A stretch of DNA of 39,854 nt. Origin: a virus. Positions 2,339-38,234 of this stretch are shown here, piece by piece. A program made the position numbers and the translations under genes. Numbering within the stretch: position 1 is the stretch's first letter; every line of letters begins with the position of its first letter. The notes below the pieces were generated by a model. It ran no database searches, had not been told where the DNA came from, and saw nothing but the letters and a program-made list of their open reading frames with translations. The stretch is from positions 1 through 39,854 of the IMG/VR virus record IMGVR_UViG_3300043803_001184; one strand, written 5' to 3'.

Positions 2339-2364
2339 CTTAAAAAGTCTTAACCGTATCTTAA

Positions 2365-2394
2365 TTGACACATCTGATACGGTTATGCTATGAT
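2365..2394 (+). promoter_or_regulatory. host-type promoter embedded in a hairpin, upstream of the porin
   Basis: TTGACA (2365-2370), 18 bp, TATGAT (2389-2394). The -35 box lies in the loop of a perfect 9-bp hairpin, AACCGTATC (2352-2360) with GATACGGTT (2376-2384). The hairpin has no T tract, so it may be a weak terminator for the tRNA transcript. Confidence 0.55.
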
Positions 2395-4095: not shown

Positions 4096-5073
4096 ATGAA
4101 ACTCAAACACATTGCTACACTTGGTCTTGCTCTTGCTCCTACCACTGCACTTGCTGGACCTATTCTCAATGGTGCTGGCGCCACCTTCCCTGCACCAATT
4201 TATCAACGATGGTTCCAAGATTATGCACGAACTACTGGGAACAGGGTTAATTATCAGTCCGTTGGTTCTGGCGCTGGTATTCGTCAATTTGTTGCGGGCA
4301 CAGTTGACTTCGGAGCAAGCGACGAACCAATCAAAGCAAAAGAAGCAGCAAAAGTAAAGCGTGGTGTTGTTCAGATTCCTATGGTGGGTGGAACGATTGC
4401 TGTTGCCTACAACAAACCTGGATGCAAACTGAAACTGACTCAGAAGCAAACTGTTGATATCTTTGCTGGTCGTATTAAGGACTGGAAACAAGTCGGTTGT
4501 GCTGCTGGTTCTATCAGGGTTGTCCATCGTTCGGACGGTTCTGGAACCACTTATGCTTTCACCAACTCTCTGGATGCTTTTGGTGGTTGGACTGCTGGTG
4601 TTGGTAAGTCAATCAACTGGCCTGTTGGAGTCGGTGCAAAAGGTAATGAAGGTGTTGCTGGAACTCTTTCCAACACTCCTGGTGGTATCGGTTATCTCAA
4701 TACTGGATTCGTTCGTGCTAATAAACTCCAGGCTGCTGTTCTTCAGAACAAGGCAGGTAAGTTTGTTGGACCTTCTGCTGTAACTGGTGCTGCTGCTCTG
4801 AATGGAATCAAACTGGATCCTGTGACCCTTGCTGGTGAAGATCCTAATCCTGCAGGTGCTCGTGCCTATCCTATTTCCACTCTGACCTGGATTATTGCCT
4901 ATAAGAGTGGTTATGCTCCTGGTAAAGCGACCGCAGTTCGTGATGCTCTGAACTATGCTCTGAGTTCCAAGGCACAATCACTTGCTGATGACCTGGGTTA
5001 TGTTCCTCTTTCTGGTTCTATTCTGAATCGTTCCCGTCTGAAAGTTCAACAAATCGGTCTGGGCGAGAAGTGA
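4096..5073 (+). CDS. pstS: PstS, periplasmic phosphate-binding protein
   Basis: 325 residues. Signal peptide (1-20, ending TALAGP), then the PstS fold with 'LNGAGATFPAPIYQRWF', 'YQSVGSGAGIRQFVAGTVDFGASDEP', 'HRSDGSGTTYAFTN' and 'TPGGIGYLNTG'. The SGAG, SDEP and SDGSGT segments are the conserved phosphate-contact loops. PstS captures phosphate and hands it to the host PstCAB transporter. Cyanophage pstS genes are known to be host-acquired and driven by the host PhoR/PhoB system, which the repeats upstream support. A compound terminator/promoter follows. Confidence 0.95.
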   Translation: MKLKHIATLGLALAPTTALAGPILNGAGATFPAPIYQRWFQDYARTTGNRVNYQSVGSGAGIRQFVAGTVDFGASDEPIKAKEAAKVKRGVVQIPMVGGTIAVAYNKPGCKLKLTQKQTVDIFAGRIKDWKQVGCAAGSIRVVHRSDGSGTTYAFTNSLDAFGGWTAGVGKSINWPVGVGAKGNEGVAGTLSNTPGGIGYLNTGFVRANKLQAAVLQNKAGKFVGPSAVTGAAALNGIKLDPVTLAGEDPNPAGARAYPISTLTWIIAYKSGYAPGKATAVRDALNYALSSKAQSLADDLGYVPLSGSILNRSRLKVQQIGLGEK

Positions 5074-5081
5074 TACATAAT

Positions 5082-5110
5082 GGGGGGGGGGTTGACAAGA
5101 CCCCCTTTTT
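5082..5110 (+). terminator. terminator of pstS whose loop carries the next -35 box
   Basis: The last five of ten consecutive G (5082-5091) pair with CCCCC (5101-5105) around the 9-nt loop TTGACAAGA, followed by TTTTT. The loop contains the TTGACA of the following promoter. The 10-G tract is unusual in this AT-rich genome. Confidence 0.85.
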
Positions 5111-5120
5111 ATTGTATTAT
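5092..5120 (+). promoter_or_regulatory. host-type promoter interlocked with the pstS terminator
   Basis: TTGACA (5092-5097), 17 bp, TATTAT (5115-5120). The spacer is formed by the terminator 3' arm and T tract. RNA would start near 5127, 15 nt before the next gene, which has a strong AGGAGG at 5133-5138. Confidence 0.8.
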
Positions 5121-5141: not shown

Positions 5142-5354
5142 ATGTCTCTTCTTTCGCAACTAGACAGGCAACTTGCCATAAGTGCTTTTGAGCATTATGC
5201 TGATTTTCTAAACAGTGAAATATCTTTTATTGAAGATTCCCAACTAGTTGACGACCCAAACTATCCAGAGTATCATACATACAAGCAAGAGTTGTATGAG
5301 TTAAATACACTTCTCAACTGGGTACGTTTGGAGCACTTCAAGAATGAAAATTAA
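5142..5354 (+). CDS. small acidic protein of unknown function
   Basis: 70 residues, mostly helical and acidic, with many Tyr and Leu residues and no membrane segment or metal motif. The start is well supported by an AGGAGG four bases upstream. Its last 11 nt overlap the start of the next small gene, so the two are probably co-translated. First gene of a short unit led by the terminator-embedded promoter; the position suggests an early host-takeover role. Not recognised. Confidence 0.7.
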   Translation: MSLLSQLDRQLAISAFEHYADFLNSEISFIEDSQLVDDPNYPEYHTYKQELYELNTLLNWVRLEHFKNEN

Positions 5355-13773: not shown

Positions 13774-13774
13774 G

Positions 13775-13801
13775 GGAGAGTTGCATAAACTCTCCTTTTT
13801 T
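13775..13801 (+). terminator. terminator with embedded -35 box, ahead of the glycan operon
   Basis: GGAGAGTT (13775-13782), loop GCATA, AACTCTCC (13788-13795), then six T. The TTGCAT -35 box overlaps the stem end and loop. Confidence 0.9.
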
Positions 13802-13809
13802 AGTATAAT
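13781..13809 (+). promoter_or_regulatory. promoter of the 15-kb glycan operon, interlocked with a terminator
   Basis: TTGCAT (13781-13786), 17 bp, TATAAT (13804-13809). RNA start near 13816, leaving a leader of only about 15 nt without a Shine-Dalgarno sequence. No late box is seen, so the operon appears to be of early class. Confidence 0.75.
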
Positions 13810-29180: not shown

Positions 29181-29207
29181 AAGGGAGGCTTGACCTCCCT
29201 TTATTTT
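29181..29207 (+). terminator. terminator of the glycan operon with embedded -35 box
   Basis: AAGGGAGG (29181-29188), loop CTTGA, CCTCCCTT (29194-29201), then a T-rich tract. The TTGACC of the hli promoter overlaps the loop and 3' arm. Confidence 0.9.
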
Positions 29208-29218
29208 TGCTATATAAT
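29190..29218 (+). promoter_or_regulatory. hli promoter interlocked with the operon terminator
   Basis: TTGACC (29190-29195), 17 bp, exact TATAAT (29213-29218). RNA start near 29225, about 21 nt before the hli ATG. Confidence 0.82.
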
Positions 29219-29245: not shown

Positions 29246-29455
29246 ATGACTGTAACAACTAACGAACGCGGACAAATGAATATGTGGGCAATTGAGCCTC
29301 CTGTTTATATCTCCGACGAAGATGCTATCAAATATGGAATGAAAACTTATGCTGAACGTGCTGAATCCGCTAATGGACGCTGGGCTATGGTCGGCATTGT
29401 TGCTGGTTTCATTTCTTACGCTATCACTGGCAACCTCTACTTCGGACTATTCTGA
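29246..29455 (+). CDS. hli: high-light-inducible protein (Hli)
   Basis: 69 residues from ATG 29246; the longer frame from 29207 would start upstream of the RNA start. A short N-terminal loop, then one chlorophyll-binding helix with the conserved 'ERAESANGRWAMVGIVAGF' (the ExxNGRxAMxG motif, about residues 37-55). Hli proteins bind chlorophyll and carotenoid in thylakoids and dissipate excess energy around PSII during D1 turnover. The stop overlaps the next ATG (TGATG). Confidence 0.93.
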   Translation: MTVTTNERGQMNMWAIEPPVYISDEDAIKYGMKTYAERAESANGRWAMVGIVAGFISYAITGNLYFGLF

Positions 29456-31014: not shown

Positions 31015-33072
31015 ATGGGCATTTTTAAGAAGACTGTAAAGTATTCTAAGGCTTCTAAGGATCTAGATAGTAAAATAAAAAGTCTTGATGAAGGTCTGAA
31101 GAAAACAGGTGTCATTTCTGAACAGAATGATGCTGAGACTTTTTGTGTAGAAGAAAAAAAAGAAGAAAATATTCCTAAGATTGTTGATAAGATTGAAGTA
31201 GTAGAGAAAGAAGAAAAGTTATATAATTGGAGAGAAACTCTTCTAGAAGAAAATATTGCAGATGAAACCTTACTAGAAGAAAAATATGAAACTCCTGGTT
31301 TAACTAGAGTTGAAAACTATATTTCTGAAAGTAATAAGGATTTAATTATACTTAGAGATCAGGTATTCAAAGAAATATCAGAAAATACTTTACTAGATCT
31401 TCCTGAGATTAAAAATAAAATTTCTAAAGTTTTAGAAATATATGAACAACTTCAAGAGGGGTTGTTGAATGAACCACCAGAAATAAAGAATGAAGATCCT
31501 CTTACACCACTCAATCAAAACTTTGTAACACTTGATGATCTGAATAAGCATTATTCATTATTTGTCAATCGTGTGCAGGAACAACTTGCAACGATTGGTG
31601 GCGGCGGTGAAACCCGATTAAAATATCTTGACGATGTTGTTGGTATTGCCACGAATGCAAGTTTATATGATGGTAAGTTTTTAAAATATGATCACACCAT
31701 TGGTAAGTTTGTTTTTGAAGCAGCTTCTGGAGGTGGTGGTAGTGGAGAATATGCTAACGTTGCTGGTATAGCGACTTATGCTTCCACTGCTGGGGTTTCA
31801 ACATATTCTTCAGTTTCTGGAGTATCAACTTATTCTTCTACATCGGGAATAAGCACTTATGCATCTTCAAGTGGTATTGCTACTTATGCGTCATCTTCAG
31901 GCATTTCCACATACGCACAAACATCTGGTATAAGCACATACGCTTCAACCGCTGGTATTGCAACATACGCACAAACCGCAGGAATTGCGACATCAGCAGG
32001 AACAGCAACGACCGCAACAAATCTTGCTGATGCTGCTAATATTCTCACAGGAACTATTAATAAAGATAGAATTTCAACAACAAATACATTGACTATTCTT
32101 GGTGACTTATATGTAAGTAATAATATATCTTTTGGTGGAACAACAACTCAATTAAATACTGAACAACTTAATATTGTTGATGCTGATATTGTATTGGGTA
32201 TTGGAACTACTTTTAGTCCATCAGATAATACTGCAAATCACGGTGGTATTGCAATTGCATCCACAGAAGGAACACCACTTGTAGATTTGAACATCGTTCC
32301 TGGTGAAACTAATCCTTCCACATACAAAAAAATGATGTGGTTCAAGGGCAGCACTATTGGTGCTGGTATTACCGATGCTTGGTTGTTTAACTATGCTGTT
32401 GGTATTGGATCTACACAAGTTCCTAACGGAGTTCGCCTGGCAGTTGGTAATATTAGACTTACTGATAGTACTGTAACTGCAACAACGTTTAGTGGATCTT
32501 TAAGTGGAAATGCAACAAGTGCCACAACTTCAACTTATGCTTCCACTGCTGGTCTAAGCACCTATGCATCTACTGCTGGTGTTTCTACTGTTGCACAAGG
32601 ACTTACAGGAACTCCAAATATTTCAGTAGGAATTGTTACATCAAGTATTTCGATTCCTACACAGTTAAGAACGAGATCTGTTGCAGAAAAAACCACACTT
32701 ATCAATGGAAACACTGTTGGACTTGCATTTACTACTGGTGGTGGAAACGTTGCTATTTGCACCAATCCATCAGCAGATATCACTCTCAATGTAACTGAGA
32801 TTCCAACCGATAGTTCTTTTGATAATCATAGTATTTCATTCTCTGTGATTGTAACTCAAACAGGAACGGCTAGAACTTGCACTGCTGTAAATTTAAATGG
32901 AGTTTCTAGAACTATACGTTGGTCTGGCGGATCTCTTGCAAACGCACTTTCAGGAATTTCTACAATAAATGGGTATGATATCTTTACGTTTACTGGTATT
33001 AATACAGTAGGTTCGGCAAGTACAACAGCAAACTATGTTGTACTGGGAAGCGTGAATGGAGGATTCAATTAA
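31015..33072 (+). CDS. large fibre-like virion protein with nonapeptide repeats
   Basis: 685 residues. The N-terminal third (1-190) is Lys/Glu-rich with coiled-coil potential ('KDLDSKIKSLDEGLKKTG', 'LPEIKNKISKVLEIYEQLQEG'). A Gly hinge (about 195-200 and 237-245) leads to about nine 9-residue repeats of form GI(S/A)TYAS(S/T)(A/S) at residues 249-330. The distal half has beta-structured fibre segments ('ILGDLYVSNNISFGG', 'NHGGIAIASTEGTPLVDLNI', 'TAWLF'-like turns) and two more repeats near 504-526. Style and late promoter fit a cyanophage tail- or whisker-like fibre. It overlaps the next gene by one base. Confidence 0.78.
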   Translation: MGIFKKTVKYSKASKDLDSKIKSLDEGLKKTGVISEQNDAETFCVEEKKEENIPKIVDKIEVVEKEEKLYNWRETLLEENIADETLLEEKYETPGLTRVENYISESNKDLIILRDQVFKEISENTLLDLPEIKNKISKVLEIYEQLQEGLLNEPPEIKNEDPLTPLNQNFVTLDDLNKHYSLFVNRVQEQLATIGGGGETRLKYLDDVVGIATNASLYDGKFLKYDHTIGKFVFEAASGGGGSGEYANVAGIATYASTAGVSTYSSVSGVSTYSSTSGISTYASSSGIATYASSSGISTYAQTSGISTYASTAGIATYAQTAGIATSAGTATTATNLADAANILTGTINKDRISTTNTLTILGDLYVSNNISFGGTTTQLNTEQLNIVDADIVLGIGTTFSPSDNTANHGGIAIASTEGTPLVDLNIVPGETNPSTYKKMMWFKGSTIGAGITDAWLFNYAVGIGSTQVPNGVRLAVGNIRLTDSTVTATTFSGSLSGNATSATTSTYASTAGLSTYASTAGVSTVAQGLTGTPNISVGIVTSSISIPTQLRTRSVAEKTTLINGNTVGLAFTTGGGNVAICTNPSADITLNVTEIPTDSSFDNHSISFSVIVTQTGTARTCTAVNLNGVSRTIRWSGGSLANALSGISTINGYDIFTFTGINTVGSASTTANYVVLGSVNGGFN

Positions 33073-33935
33073 TGTCCTTTATTTCCAGAATTAGTACTGG
33101 TCGTCAAGGACGTTCACAACAATCAAAACAAAGAGTTTCTGTATCTCCAGTATTTTCAGAAACTGGTTGGAACATCTTGATGATGTATACTGGAAAAAAA
33201 GTAGCATCCTCAACCTGGATTGGAGCTGGTCTAAACACATTAAGAACCAGTATGGGTTCTCCTGGCACATCAACGTTTATGACGATGACTGCTGCCTCAA
33301 CAGGTGCGAATGGGAGAACTGCTCTGGGTCAAGGTCAAGGTTTGTATAATGCTTTCTTTACTCAAACTGGTATCACAAAAATTGCTTTGGTTGATGGAAG
33401 TGGAAGTAGTCTAGACCCAACTTCTCATACAAACTATCTTGTTTATGATTTGGTAGAAAGTACAGGAAGTGAATCTATTGATGCGATTTTAAAAAGACTG
33501 GACATCTATCAGAGAGACGCAACACAGTTTCAGAACAATGATACAGTCTGGCCAAACGCAAGTGTTTTAAACCATACTGCTGGAACAAATGGATATTCTG
33601 GTTTACTATCCGCAAGTGGTGGAACAGCATTTAAAGCATTTTCAAGAGCTGGAGCTGACCAAGGCATTCCAGGTCGTTTTTGTGTAATGGGAATCAACAG
33701 AGACTCTGATAACGACATTCAGGCACTATGTGCTTTCAGTGGAAACTTACAGTCTGGAAAGGGTGATGCTTGGAGAGGACAAAACCCAGAGCAAACTTTT
33801 TGGAGTTATTGGGGAGATGACTTTCATACTGACAGTCGTGCCCGTAGAATCGGAAACCAGTTACAGTCTGCTCCTGGCGTTGCGACACAGTGTACTCATA
33901 CTGGGGATGTATATTTGCTTGCCTATACCCCTTGA
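33072..33935 (+). CDS. hypothetical virion protein, partner of the fibre
   Basis: 287 residues, soluble, rich in Gly, Ser, Thr and aromatic residues. The N-terminus is basic ('STGRQGRSQQSKQRV'). Later segments include 'NYLVYDLVESTGSESIDAILKRLD' and 'FWSYWGDDFHTDSRARRIGN'. It begins on the last base of the fibre stop codon (TAATG), so translation is coupled. No family recognised. Most likely a fibre-tip, fibre-attachment or capsid-associated protein. The TTGACA promoter of psbA overlaps its stop. Confidence 0.68.
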   Translation: MSFISRISTGRQGRSQQSKQRVSVSPVFSETGWNILMMYTGKKVASSTWIGAGLNTLRTSMGSPGTSTFMTMTAASTGANGRTALGQGQGLYNAFFTQTGITKIALVDGSGSSLDPTSHTNYLVYDLVESTGSESIDAILKRLDIYQRDATQFQNNDTVWPNASVLNHTAGTNGYSGLLSASGGTAFKAFSRAGADQGIPGRFCVMGINRDSDNDIQALCAFSGNLQSGKGDAWRGQNPEQTFWSYWGDDFHTDSRARRIGNQLQSAPGVATQCTHTGDVYLLAYTP

Positions 33936-33966: not shown

Positions 33967-34127
33967 GTAAACAAATGTTACGAAATACTCATATTTCTTA
34001 ACATTGCTAACACCCGTTAACCGAGACCTATGGGTGTATAAATTACGTCTCTCATATCCCGCCTGAGGGTGGCGGGAGCATAGTAACTCCACCATTTCCC
34101 TGATGGTTTTACTTTCTTTTAATTAAA
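33967..34127 (+). ncRNA. structured psbA leader with a pseudoknot candidate
   Basis: ACACCC (34010-34015) pairs with GGGTGT (34032-34037). GAGAC in its loop (34023-34027) pairs with GTCTC downstream (34047-34051), forming an H-type pseudoknot. A 7-bp hairpin TCCCGCC/GGCGGGA (34057-34063 with 34071-34077) and ACCAT/ATGGT (34091-34095 with 34103-34107) follow. Cyanophage psbA leaders are known to carry conserved RNA motifs (PhotoRC-II); whether this is that motif needs a covariance search. Confidence 0.55.
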
Positions 34128-35468
34128 ATGACTGCTACACTTTCACGTCAAAAATCACAATCGAATACTTGGGAACAGTTCTGCCAGTGGGTTACCTCAA
34201 CCGATAATCGTCTTTATGTCGGTTGGTTTGGAGTCCTGATGATTCCTTGCCTGCTTGCTGCTACTATCTGTTTCATCGTTGCCTTCATTGCCGCACCTCC
34301 TGTGGACATTGATGGTATCCGTGAACCCGTTGCTGGTTCACTCATGTACGGAAACAACATCATCTCTGGTGCTGTCATTCCTTCGTCCAATGCTATTGGA
34401 CTGCACTTTTACCCCATCTGGGAAGCTGCTTCCCTAGATGAGTGGCTTTACAACGGTGGTCCGTTCCAACTGGTTGTGTTCCACTTCCTGATTGGTATCT
34501 ACGCCTACATGGGTCGTGAGTGGGAACTCTCCTATCGTCTGGGTATGCGTCCTTGGATCTGTGTTGCATACAGCGCACCTGTCGCTGCTGCATCTGCTGT
34601 ATTCCTGGTCTATCCTTTCGGTCAAGGTTCTTTCTCTGATGCGATGCCTCTGGGTATCTCTGGTACTTTCAACTACATGCTTGTGTTCCAGGCAGAGCAC
34701 AACATCCTGATGCACCCCTTCCACATGCTTGGTGTTGCTGGTGTGTTTGGTGGTTCTCTGTTCAGTGCGATGCACGGTTCTCTGGTTACTTCCTCACTGG
34801 TTCGTGAAACCACTGAGTCTGAGTCACAGAACTATGGTTACAAGTTCGGTCAAGAAGAAGAGACTTATAACATCGTTGCTGCTCACGGTTACTTTGGACG
34901 CCTTATTTTCCAATACGCTTCGTTCAACAATAGCCGTAGTCTGCACTTCTTCCTCGCCGCTTGGCCTGTAGTTGGCATCTGGTTCACCGCTCTTGGTGTT
35001 TCCACGATGGCATTCAACCTGAATGGTTTCAACTTTAATCAAAGTATCGTTGATAGTCAGGGTAAGGTAATCAATACCTGGGCTGATGTTCTGAACCGTG
35101 CTGGACTGGGGATGGAGGTAATGCACGAGCGCAACGCTAGAATTGTTGGTGTTGTTGCCTAGTAATAGGCATTAGAAAAATCGGGTTAAACGGGGAAACT
35201 CTCTATGAGACAATCCCGTACCAAGTCAGAAAGGGTTTAAGTTTTCTGAAAGGTCTAACGACTAGGTAGTGAGTCCCAACAATAATCTACCCACGAATGC
35301 CCGACTCCTTAATAAACATAAGGATGAAGAGATAGTCTGAACTTACTGGCGACAGTAAGAAGTAAAGAATAAAGAGTCTTTACGATAACAAAATTGCACA
35401 ATTTCCCTCTTGACCTTGCAGCAGCAGAAGCAACCCCAGTTGCTCTTACTGCTCCCGCAATCGGTTAA
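34128..35468 (+). CDS. psbA: photosystem II D1 protein, split by a group I intron
   Basis: Exon 1 is 34128-35138 (337 codons) and exon 2 is 35397-35468 (23 codons plus stop). Spliced product: 360 residues, the normal D1 length. The sequence is typical of D1 ('[13 protein letters not shown]', '[26 protein letters not shown]', '[19 protein letters not shown]', '[11 protein letters not shown] | [14 protein letters not shown]'). D1 binds the PSII pigments, quinone B and the Mn4Ca cluster. Exon 2 encodes His337, Asp342 and Ala344, ligands of the Mn cluster, so unspliced RNA would give an inactive protein ending after seven intron-encoded residues. It replaces host D1, which is rapidly photodamaged during infection. 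Confidence 0.96.
35139..35396 (+). ncRNA. group I self-splicing intron in psbA (258 nt)
   Basis: The exon 1 end CAACGCT pairs with the internal guide GGTGTTG (35148-35154), giving P1 with the required U-G at the splice site. AATTGT (35141-35146) pairs with the 3' exon ACAATT (35398-35403) as P10. The intron ends in G. Core elements: Q-like 'CAATCCCGTACCAAG', R-like 'AACGACTA' with P7 partner 'TAGTC' (35252-35268 and 35325-35340), P8 CCTTA/TAAGG (35307-35311, 35319-35323), P9 CTTACTG-GCGA-CAGTAAG with a GNRA loop, P9.1 GTAAAG/CTTTAC. No endonuclease ORF inside. The S-PM2 psbA gene is known to carry a group I intron of similar size. Confidence 0.93.
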
Positions 35469-35475
35469 TAAAATT

Positions 35476-35502
35476 AGAGACCCTTTACGGGTCTCTTTTT
35501 TT
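35476..35502 (+). terminator. psbA terminator with embedded -35 box
   Basis: AGAGACCC (35476-35483), loop TTTAC, GGGTCTCT (35489-35496), then seven T. The loop begins a TTTACG that stands 17 bp ahead of TATAAT (35507-35512). Confidence 0.92.
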
Positions 35503-35521
35503 ATGTTATAATATATAAATA
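35484..35521 (+). promoter_or_regulatory. promoter region of the GIY-YIG gene: weak host-type plus late box
   Basis: TTTACG (35484-35489), 17 bp, TATAAT (35507-35512), closely followed by the late box TATAAATA (35514-35521). A small AAGTT/AACTT hairpin (35530-35545) lies directly before the ATG at 35548. Confidence 0.55.
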
Positions 35522-37254: not shown

Positions 37255-37288
37255 TGTTATTTTTATATAAATAGTATTGCGAGAGGCA
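37245..37288 (+). promoter_or_regulatory. late promoter held in a hairpin that masks the HNH ribosome-binding site
   Basis: TGCCCTCT (37245-37252, containing the last psbD codons) pairs with AGAGGCA (37282-37288) with one bulged C. The loop holds the late box TATAAATA (37266-37273). The 3' arm is the AGAGG ribosome-binding site. psbD read-through RNA would be locked, and late RNA would be free. Confidence 0.7.
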
Positions 37289-37297
37289 ATGCTACTA

Positions 37298-37867
37298 ATG
37301 GTTTGGAATAAAGGATTAATAAATGACCCCCGATCAAAAGGGGGTCGCCCCAAATCAAGTCTCTCATATGTCGGTCAGACCTATGGGAGACTTACTATTT
37401 TGGAACAATATAGTCATAAGAAAAGTATAAAATTTAAATGTCGTTGCGAATGTGGTAATATTACAGATGTTCGTAAAGATAATTTAATAACAAAAGCAGA
37501 CACGGTTTCTTGTGGATGTAGATTAAAAGAACTTCAACAAGAAAGAAAAGAAATGGGTATTGATGAAGTATCTGCTATGTGGTCTAGAGCAAAATATAGA
37601 GCAAAGCAAAAAGGATTAGACTTTACAATAGAACAAAAAGATATTACTATTCCAGATGTTTGCCCTTTACTTGGAATACCATTAGTCTGTCATAGAGGTA
37701 AAGGAAGTCAGAAGGGGAACTCTCCATCATTAGACCGTATAGACCCCACAAAAGGATACATAAAAGGTAATGTTTGGGTCATAAGTAATAGAGCAAACAC
37801 TCTCAAAAACGATGCCACCCTACAAGAACTCCAAACACTTGTAGAAAATCTTAGCAAGGGGGCTTGA
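37298..37867 (+). CDS. HNH homing endonuclease downstream of psbD
   Basis: 189 residues from ATG 37298, which fits AGAGG at 37282; an ATG at 37289 or a TTG at 37277 are alternatives. N-terminal 'VGQTYGRLTILEQYS' and 'FKCRCECGNITDVRKDNLI...VSCGC' form a Zn-binding region common in phage HNH enzymes. A basic helical middle follows, then the HNH part 'CPLLGIPLVCHRGK', 'SPSLDRIDPTKGYIKGNVWVISNRANTLKND'. It probably targets psbD or its flank. Its TGA stop lies in the terminator/promoter module of petE. Confidence 0.88.
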   Translation: MVWNKGLINDPRSKGGRPKSSLSYVGQTYGRLTILEQYSHKKSIKFKCRCECGNITDVRKDNLITKADTVSCGCRLKELQQERKEMGIDEVSAMWSRAKYRAKQKGLDFTIEQKDITIPDVCPLLGIPLVCHRGKGSQKGNSPSLDRIDPTKGYIKGNVWVISNRANTLKNDATLQELQTLVENLSKGA

Positions 37868-37881
37868 CGCCTCCTTTTTTT
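37856..37881 (+). terminator. terminator with embedded -35 box, ahead of petE
   Basis: AAGGGGGC (37856-37863), loop TTGAC, GCCTCCTT (37869-37876) with one G-T pair, followed by T residues. Confidence 0.85.
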
Positions 37882-37892
37882 GTCTATATAAT
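37864..37892 (+). promoter_or_regulatory. petE promoter interlocked with a terminator
   Basis: TTGACG (37864-37869), 17 bp, exact TATAAT (37887-37892). RNA start near 37899, about 12 nt before the petE ATG. The -35 box also overlaps the stop codon of the HNH gene. Confidence 0.82.
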
Positions 37893-37910: not shown

Positions 37911-38234
37911 ATGAAGTTCCTTATCACACTTCTCGCTACGCTTTTCTTTGCCCTCCCCGCTTGGGCAGTAGACGTTCAGATGGGCAACAACGGAAATTTG
38001 GTTTTTGAACCTAATGAAATTTCTATCAGTGCTGGTGATAGCATTCATTTTATCAACAACGTGCTACCTCCACATAATGTGATTGTAGAAGACCATCCAG
38101 AACTCTCTCACACAGGACTCGCTTTTGCACCAGGAGAAACTTTTGACATTGCCTTTCCTGAACCAGGAGACTATACTTTCTGGTGCGATCCTCATAAGGG
38201 GGCAGGAATGATTGGACACATTCACGTTTCATAG
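37911..38234 (+). CDS. petE: plastocyanin
   Basis: 107 residues. Signal peptide 1-19 (MKFLITLLATLFFALPAWA) for lumen targeting, then a compact cupredoxin. Copper ligands His55 ('PPHNVIVED'), Cys92, His95 and Met100 ('FWCDPHKGAGMIGHIHV') are all present. Mature length is about 88 residues, slightly below host plastocyanin. It carries electrons from cytochrome b6f to PSI in the thylakoid lumen. Very short leader with no clear Shine-Dalgarno sequence. Confidence 0.95.
   Translation: MKFLITLLATLFFALPAWAVDVQMGNNGNLVFEPNEISISAGDSIHFINNVLPPHNVIVEDHPELSHTGLAFAPGETFDIAFPEPGDYTFWCDPHKGAGMIGHIHVS

Follow-up and report, generated by a model that had tools for sequence, protein, structure and literature searches.

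Putative terminator-promoter modules with the -35 hexamer in the terminator loop at borders of metabolic genes in a T4-like cyanophage

According to the summary given in PMC4503421, which names Arbiol et al. (2010) and Comeau et al. (2014) (its references 36 and 37) as the sources, promoter-early stem-loops (PeSLs) are composite promoter-terminator motifs of T4-like myoviruses that are located between genes of the plastic regions of T4-like genomes and are tied to gene shuffling. S-PM2 is said in the same summary to hold few PeSLs.

The stretch of DNA analysed here (the window) is a virus record of 39,854 b representing a fragment of a larger phage genome. By similarity, the phage was assigned to the T4-like cyanophages (Kyanoviridae); in synteny its nearest relatives are S-SRM01 and DSL-LC03 (Kyanoviridae), to which it also shows similarity. 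The window carries pstS, glycan genes, hli, psbA, a psbD-like gene and petE, as well as seven tRNAs. Five short elements (modules A to E), all on the plus strand, combine the sequence of an intrinsic terminator with that of a sigma70-type promoter and adjoin metabolic genes, namely pstS, psbA, hli, petE and the glycan block.

Geometry and location of the five modules

The five module sequences, starting at positions 5082, 13774, 29181, 35476 and 37856, were found in the window letter for letter. Each is 35-39 bp long and, according to RNA folding, consists of a hairpin of 7-9 bp with a pentaloop and a T-rich tract following it. The -35 hexamers of modules A to E are TTGACA, TTGCAT, TTGACC, TTTACG and TTGACG, respectively; the spacer is exactly 17 bp in all five, and the -10 hexamer is either TATTAT or TATAAT, located about 18-27 nt before the next start codon where this codon is clear. 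The original prediction that the loop provides the -35 hexamer proved right for most of each hexamer, which overlaps the loop by 4-5 nt, but its first or last 1-2 bases belong to an arm. The folding energies are -11.9, -12.9, -12.4, -13.1 and -11.9 kcal/mol in the same order. Four of the hairpins are far more stable than their shuffled versions (z from -3.3 to -5.2), whereas the G run of module A deprives its hairpin of any such advantage (z -0.8). A repeat family joining the five modules of the window was looked for and none was found, their arm sequences being different; small families of similar modules are present in S-SKS1 and S-SRM01.

Module A (5082-5120) starts 8 nt past pstS (4096-5073) and is followed by a small ORF (5142-5354). 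It comprises a hairpin at 5087-5105 with the loop GACAA (5094-5098), a T tract at 5106-5110, the -35 TTGACA at 5092-5097 and the -10 TATTAT at 5115-5120, and has a counterpart in S-SRM01 at 186414. Module B (13774-13809) separates a wcaG RNA, which it follows directly, from the glycosyltransferase block; its hairpin (13774-13796) has the loop GCATA, its -10 TATAAT occupies 13804-13809, and its -35-like TTGCAT (13781-13786) is weak, matching at 3/6 positions. Module C (29181-29218) is located 36 nt downstream of a glycosyltransferase gene and upstream of hli (ATG at 29246), with the hairpin at 29181-29201, the loop CTTGA, the -35 TTGACC at 29190-29195 and the -10 TATAAT at 29213-29218; equivalents with different arms occur in S-SKS1 at 33281 on the minus strand and at many IMG/VR hli loci.

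Module D (35476-35512) begins 7 nt past the stop codon of psbA exon 2 (about 35466-35468) and includes a hairpin at 35476-35496 with the loop TTTAC, the -35 TTTACG (35484-35489) and the -10 TATAAT (35507-35512). Directly after this TATAAT stands a sequence resembling a T4-late-type promoter, TATAAATA (35514-35521; the two together span 35507-35521). Module E (37856-37892), upstream of the plastocyanin gene petE (37911-38234), has a hairpin at 37856-37876, the loop TTGAC, the -35 TTGACG at 37864-37869 and the -10 TATAAT at 37887-37892. It covers the last codons of an endonuclease VII/HNH-type ORF (37277-37867), the TGA stop of which falls within the -35 hexamer.

Several other features were identified in the window. 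The psbA gene, with exon 1 starting at 34128 and exon 2 ending at about 35465, is interrupted by a group I intron (Rfam RF00028; 35129-35359), a 33-nt stretch of which (35187-35219) exactly matches Pseudomonas phages of 278-283 kb. Pseudomonas phage matches of at least 99% proved unrelated to the modules, as they correspond to this intron stretch. A PhotoRC-II RNA (RF01717) was found upstream of psbA (33999-34091), and degenerate repeats with a 27-nt period (31747-32589) are contained in an ORF of 685 aa (31015-33072).

Occurrence in the window, in cyanophage genomes and in IMG/VR

A module was defined by a terminator score of at least 17, a -35 matching at 3/6 positions or more, a TAnnnT-type -10, a total of at least 9/12 and a spacer of 16-18. 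By this rule the window contains five modules, compared with a mean of 0.013 and a maximum of 1 in 300 dinucleotide-preserving shuffles, which bears out the co-occurrence originally predicted. Twelve cyanophage genomes hold 47 modules versus 0.67 expected (12 shuffles each, same rule). Under the rule used for cyanophages, T4, RB49 and KVP40 have one module each and Syn9, whose transcription start sites were reportedly mapped by Doron et al. in 2016, has none. By a relaxed rule, 11 candidate modules were counted in S-SKS1. Five of the nine strong plus-strand terminators of the window (score of at least 19) are parts of modules; strong promoters without a terminator, as well as terminators without a promoter, are also present in the window.

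When each strong promoter was paired with each strong terminator located no more than 150 nt away, the offset between the centre of the -35 and that of the terminator loop gave a sharp peak at 0, the central 5-nt bin holding 22 pairs and no other bin more than 6; on the opposite strand there were 3. Terminator loops of cyanophages contain a -35 of at least 5/6 in 38 cases, compared with 19.4 in loop-shuffled sequences (maximum 28 in 200 shuffles), and among the 26 cyanophage terminators that combine such a loop with a -10 of at least 5/6 at 8-30 bp, the distance is 16-17 bp in 19. In the terminators of marine and freshwater cyanophages, half-promoters in the hairpin loop are far too common to be due to chance.

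IMG/VR was scanned with the pattern TTGAC-N8-TTTTT-N5-TATAAT, using the same pattern with the T run swapped for an A run as a control and bacterial genomes as a second one. Among the matches listed, a hairpin whose loop falls on the -35 was found at 36 of 80 distinct IMG/VR sites, 32 of these 36 belonging to cyanophage-like contigs; among the matches listed for the two controls, it was found at 0/81 IMG/VR sites with the A tract and at 3/80 sites of bacterial genomes with the T pattern.

Conservation, proposed function and competing explanations

The hli loci provided an alignment of 17 distinct sequences in one register. Within the arms, 97.1% of cells are paired, and 14 cells changed on both sides versus 4.5 +/- 1.5 in shuffled data, these counts overstating the number of independent events because related sequences share ancestry. 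The covariation score of 0.382, compared with 0.203, is lost on sliding. The sixth base of the -35 forms a U-A pair in 11 of the 17 rows and a G-C pair in 6; TTGAC, by contrast, never varies, and the -10 is fixed save for one TATACT. The combination of covarying arms with a fixed -35 core and a fixed -10 suggests that both the hairpin and the promoter are under selection. Together with the shuffles, the offset peak and the T/A-tract and bacterial controls, this covariation supports the original description of the modules as a compact stop-then-restart part that is under selection and keeps its geometry while the arms differ. Other hli loci have a promoter without a hairpin of this register, or a hairpin shifted upstream. 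The hli module also has varied upstream neighbours, following a gene for a glycosyltransferase in the window, pstS in other phages and, in S-SKS1, an unrelated gene.

Downstream of pstS, a module was present at 64 of 79 loci examined; most of them precede a small ORF, as in the window, and at 14 the hli module is found instead, together with hli itself. Among the relatives located upstream of petE and after wcaG, those in which the loop is UUCG tend to show a decayed -10. Downstream of psbA, a terminator was found at 59/79 loci examined and a module at 9/79. Most of these psbA relatives keep a terminator with a UUCG or GAAA loop, a few of them still with TATAAT, suggesting that the -35 of module D may be dispensable; several of the UUCG-loop versions retain TATAAT with the late-type TATAAATA close by. 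For these reasons the predicted promoter of module D is the least certain one after that of module B.

Judging from the geometry, the non-random occurrence, the joint conservation with compensating arm changes, the recurrence at particular loci and the varied neighbours, all of which are established at the sequence level, each module is very probably a compact terminator combined with a sigma70-type promoter at the border of an auxiliary metabolic gene block. One part of about 37 bp would thus serve the host RNA polymerase in two ways. Transcription of the upstream gene (pstS, psbA, the endonuclease gene etc.) would be ended by the RNA hairpin with the T tract, and the sigma70-type promoter, with its -35 in the hairpin loop and the 3' arm plus T tract as its spacer, would initiate transcription of what follows (hli, petE, the glycan block etc.) about 20-30 nt before the start codon. 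The register would represent the tightest packing of both signals, as the loop bases would be free to serve as the -35, and an 8-bp arm with a T-rich tail of 8-9 nt would make up the 17 bp preceding the -10. We infer that the hairpin terminates, that the host sigma70-type polymerase uses the promoter and that the modules act as borders. In infected cells both halves may be active, presumably at an early time, and an effect on recombination is conceivable. The modules may serve as exchangeable borders in the metabolic-gene region, so that a gene arriving with a module would bring its own stop and start.

It is an evenly balanced question whether compaction alone accounts for the overlap, i.e. 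whether both halves act and overlap in the sole workable register with no coupling between stop and start. This explanation concerns the reason why the overlap evolved and is compatible with a dual-function terminator-promoter. It agrees with the length of the modules (35-39 bp compared with about 65-83 bp for the tandem units of RB49), with the short intergenic gaps and with the upstream stop codon placed inside a -35. The recurrence at several loci with swapped neighbours is not decisive against it, but suggests that a role as a border part also contributes to the retention of the unit.

As to coupling, the putative competition between promoter binding and arriving polymerase, originally predicted for these sites, is reasonable. 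A further step would be a putative hand-over, in which a host polymerase that has stopped at the T tract would let go of its RNA no more than about 20 bp from the -10 and would restart there if sigma is kept or regained, while a promoter-held polymerase would block or modulate arrivals. Bacterial RNA polymerase usually stays on DNA and diffuses after intrinsic termination, and a sigma-retaining polymerase can restart at the original or nearby promoters (PMC6978380); another study found that post-termination restarts usually proceed in the reverse direction (PMC6978322). The interlocked promoter would be the nearest possible target for a restart. The hand-over is rather unlikely; if it is true, the module passes polymerases between gene blocks, which goes beyond mere insulation.

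Alternatively, the hairpins might be regulated terminators of the attenuator or riboswitch type, with the downstream genes transcribed only by readthrough that originates at upstream promoters. Such a mechanism is suggested by the wcaG RNA (RF01761; 13662-13765), which is listed as a possible riboswitch (PMC2864571) and ends 8 nt before module B, and it is possible that module B is a regulated terminator. An RNA of this kind occurs at module B only, however, and the hairpin of module B and its TATAAT are kept in nearly all IMG/VR wcaG loci found (a selected set, as the search pattern demanded a conserved wcaG end), as is the TATAAT in S-SRM01, despite the swapped downstream genes. Antiterminator pairing between the wcaG RNA and the arm of module B was considered and found unsupported, since the wcaG segment that could pair with the arm varies and the arm does not. 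For the modules as a class, attenuation is thus improbable. If the inner promoter of module B is used, the wcaG RNA is not necessarily included in the downstream mRNA.

It is still less probable that the terminators alone are functional and that the resemblance to -35 and -10 hexamers results from AT-rich tails and chance loop sequences. The weak -35 of module B would fit this possibility, as would those psbA and petE relatives in which the loop is UUCG or GAAA and the -10 is poor or absent. Yet the shuffles failed to reproduce the modules, a -35 of at least 5/6 is seen in loops twice as often as after loop shuffling, the accompanying -10 lying mainly at 16-17 bp, and in the hli modules the letters of the -35 core and the -10 are fixed while the arms change.

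Two further sites of the window carry inverted repeats around a -35 without a T tract. One of them (2352-2394, plus strand), after tRNA-Gly, was originally counted as a sixth hairpin: it folds (-11.2 kcal/mol) around the promoter TTGACA-18-TATGAT, but it was rejected from the class because of its 15-nt loop, the lack of a T tract and the absence of a hairpin at the equivalent place in S-SRM01, where the promoter is present. The other, an operator-like inverted repeat at 2158-2186 (TGACATAA-TACTTA-TTATGTCA), extends over the -35 and spacer of a good promoter that immediately follows tRNA-Thr. The two sites are in line with the idea that the inverted repeats of the modules, too, act at the DNA level, as operators or cruciforms that surround the -35 and are recognised by a phage regulator, and not as terminators. 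This idea is highly improbable: in each of the five modules a T tract adjoins the arm on its 3' side, the hairpins have energies of -12 to -13 kcal/mol, and the arm sequences vary yet stay complementary, unlike a protein site.

Comparison with composite elements of other phages

With the terminator-promoter modules as a recognisable signature, gene-block borders and promoters could be searched for in the genomes of cyanophages, which are among the most abundant phages and for which few start sites are mapped. The modules might also mark the plug-in points of metabolic genes such as hli, petE and pstS. As natural minimal stop-start parts of about 37 bp, they may also be useful for polymerase-recycling tests and in synthetic biology.

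At the sequence level, the modules resemble PeSLs in uniting a terminator stem-loop and a sigma70-like early promoter in one short unit and in having a T4-like carrier. Published summaries present PeSLs as a dense conserved motif, whereas the modules of the window share geometry and not arm sequence; the many near-identical copies, a PeSL feature taken from these summaries and from the KVP40 copies, are not seen in the window. RB49 has a tandem arrangement in which the -35 centre of the promoter lies about 29-46 nt past the loop centre of the terminator, whereas in the window the -35 is in the loop. The repeats of KVP40 (AAAAGGGTTGACnnnnGTCAGCCCTTTC..GTATTAT), seven near-identical plus-strand copies, are interlocked and resemble the modules in having the -35 within the hairpin and a spacer composed of the 3' arm and tail; they differ in the position of the -35 in the 5' arm, a spacer of 18 (scored copies), a weak T tract and the near-identity of the copies. 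Terminators with UUCG or GNRA loops, found in T4-like phages and cyanophages, have the same design of stem and T tract as the modules, and those with UUCG loops sit at module loci in relatives. Neither kind of terminator carries a -35 in its loop, and a -10 in register is mostly lacking. The composite promoter-terminator principle is thus already known from T4-like phages, as published summaries of PeSLs indicate; what appears to be new in the predicted modules, and sets them apart from PeSLs as these summaries describe them, is the centring of the register on the loop, the diversity of the arms and the widespread use among cyanophages.
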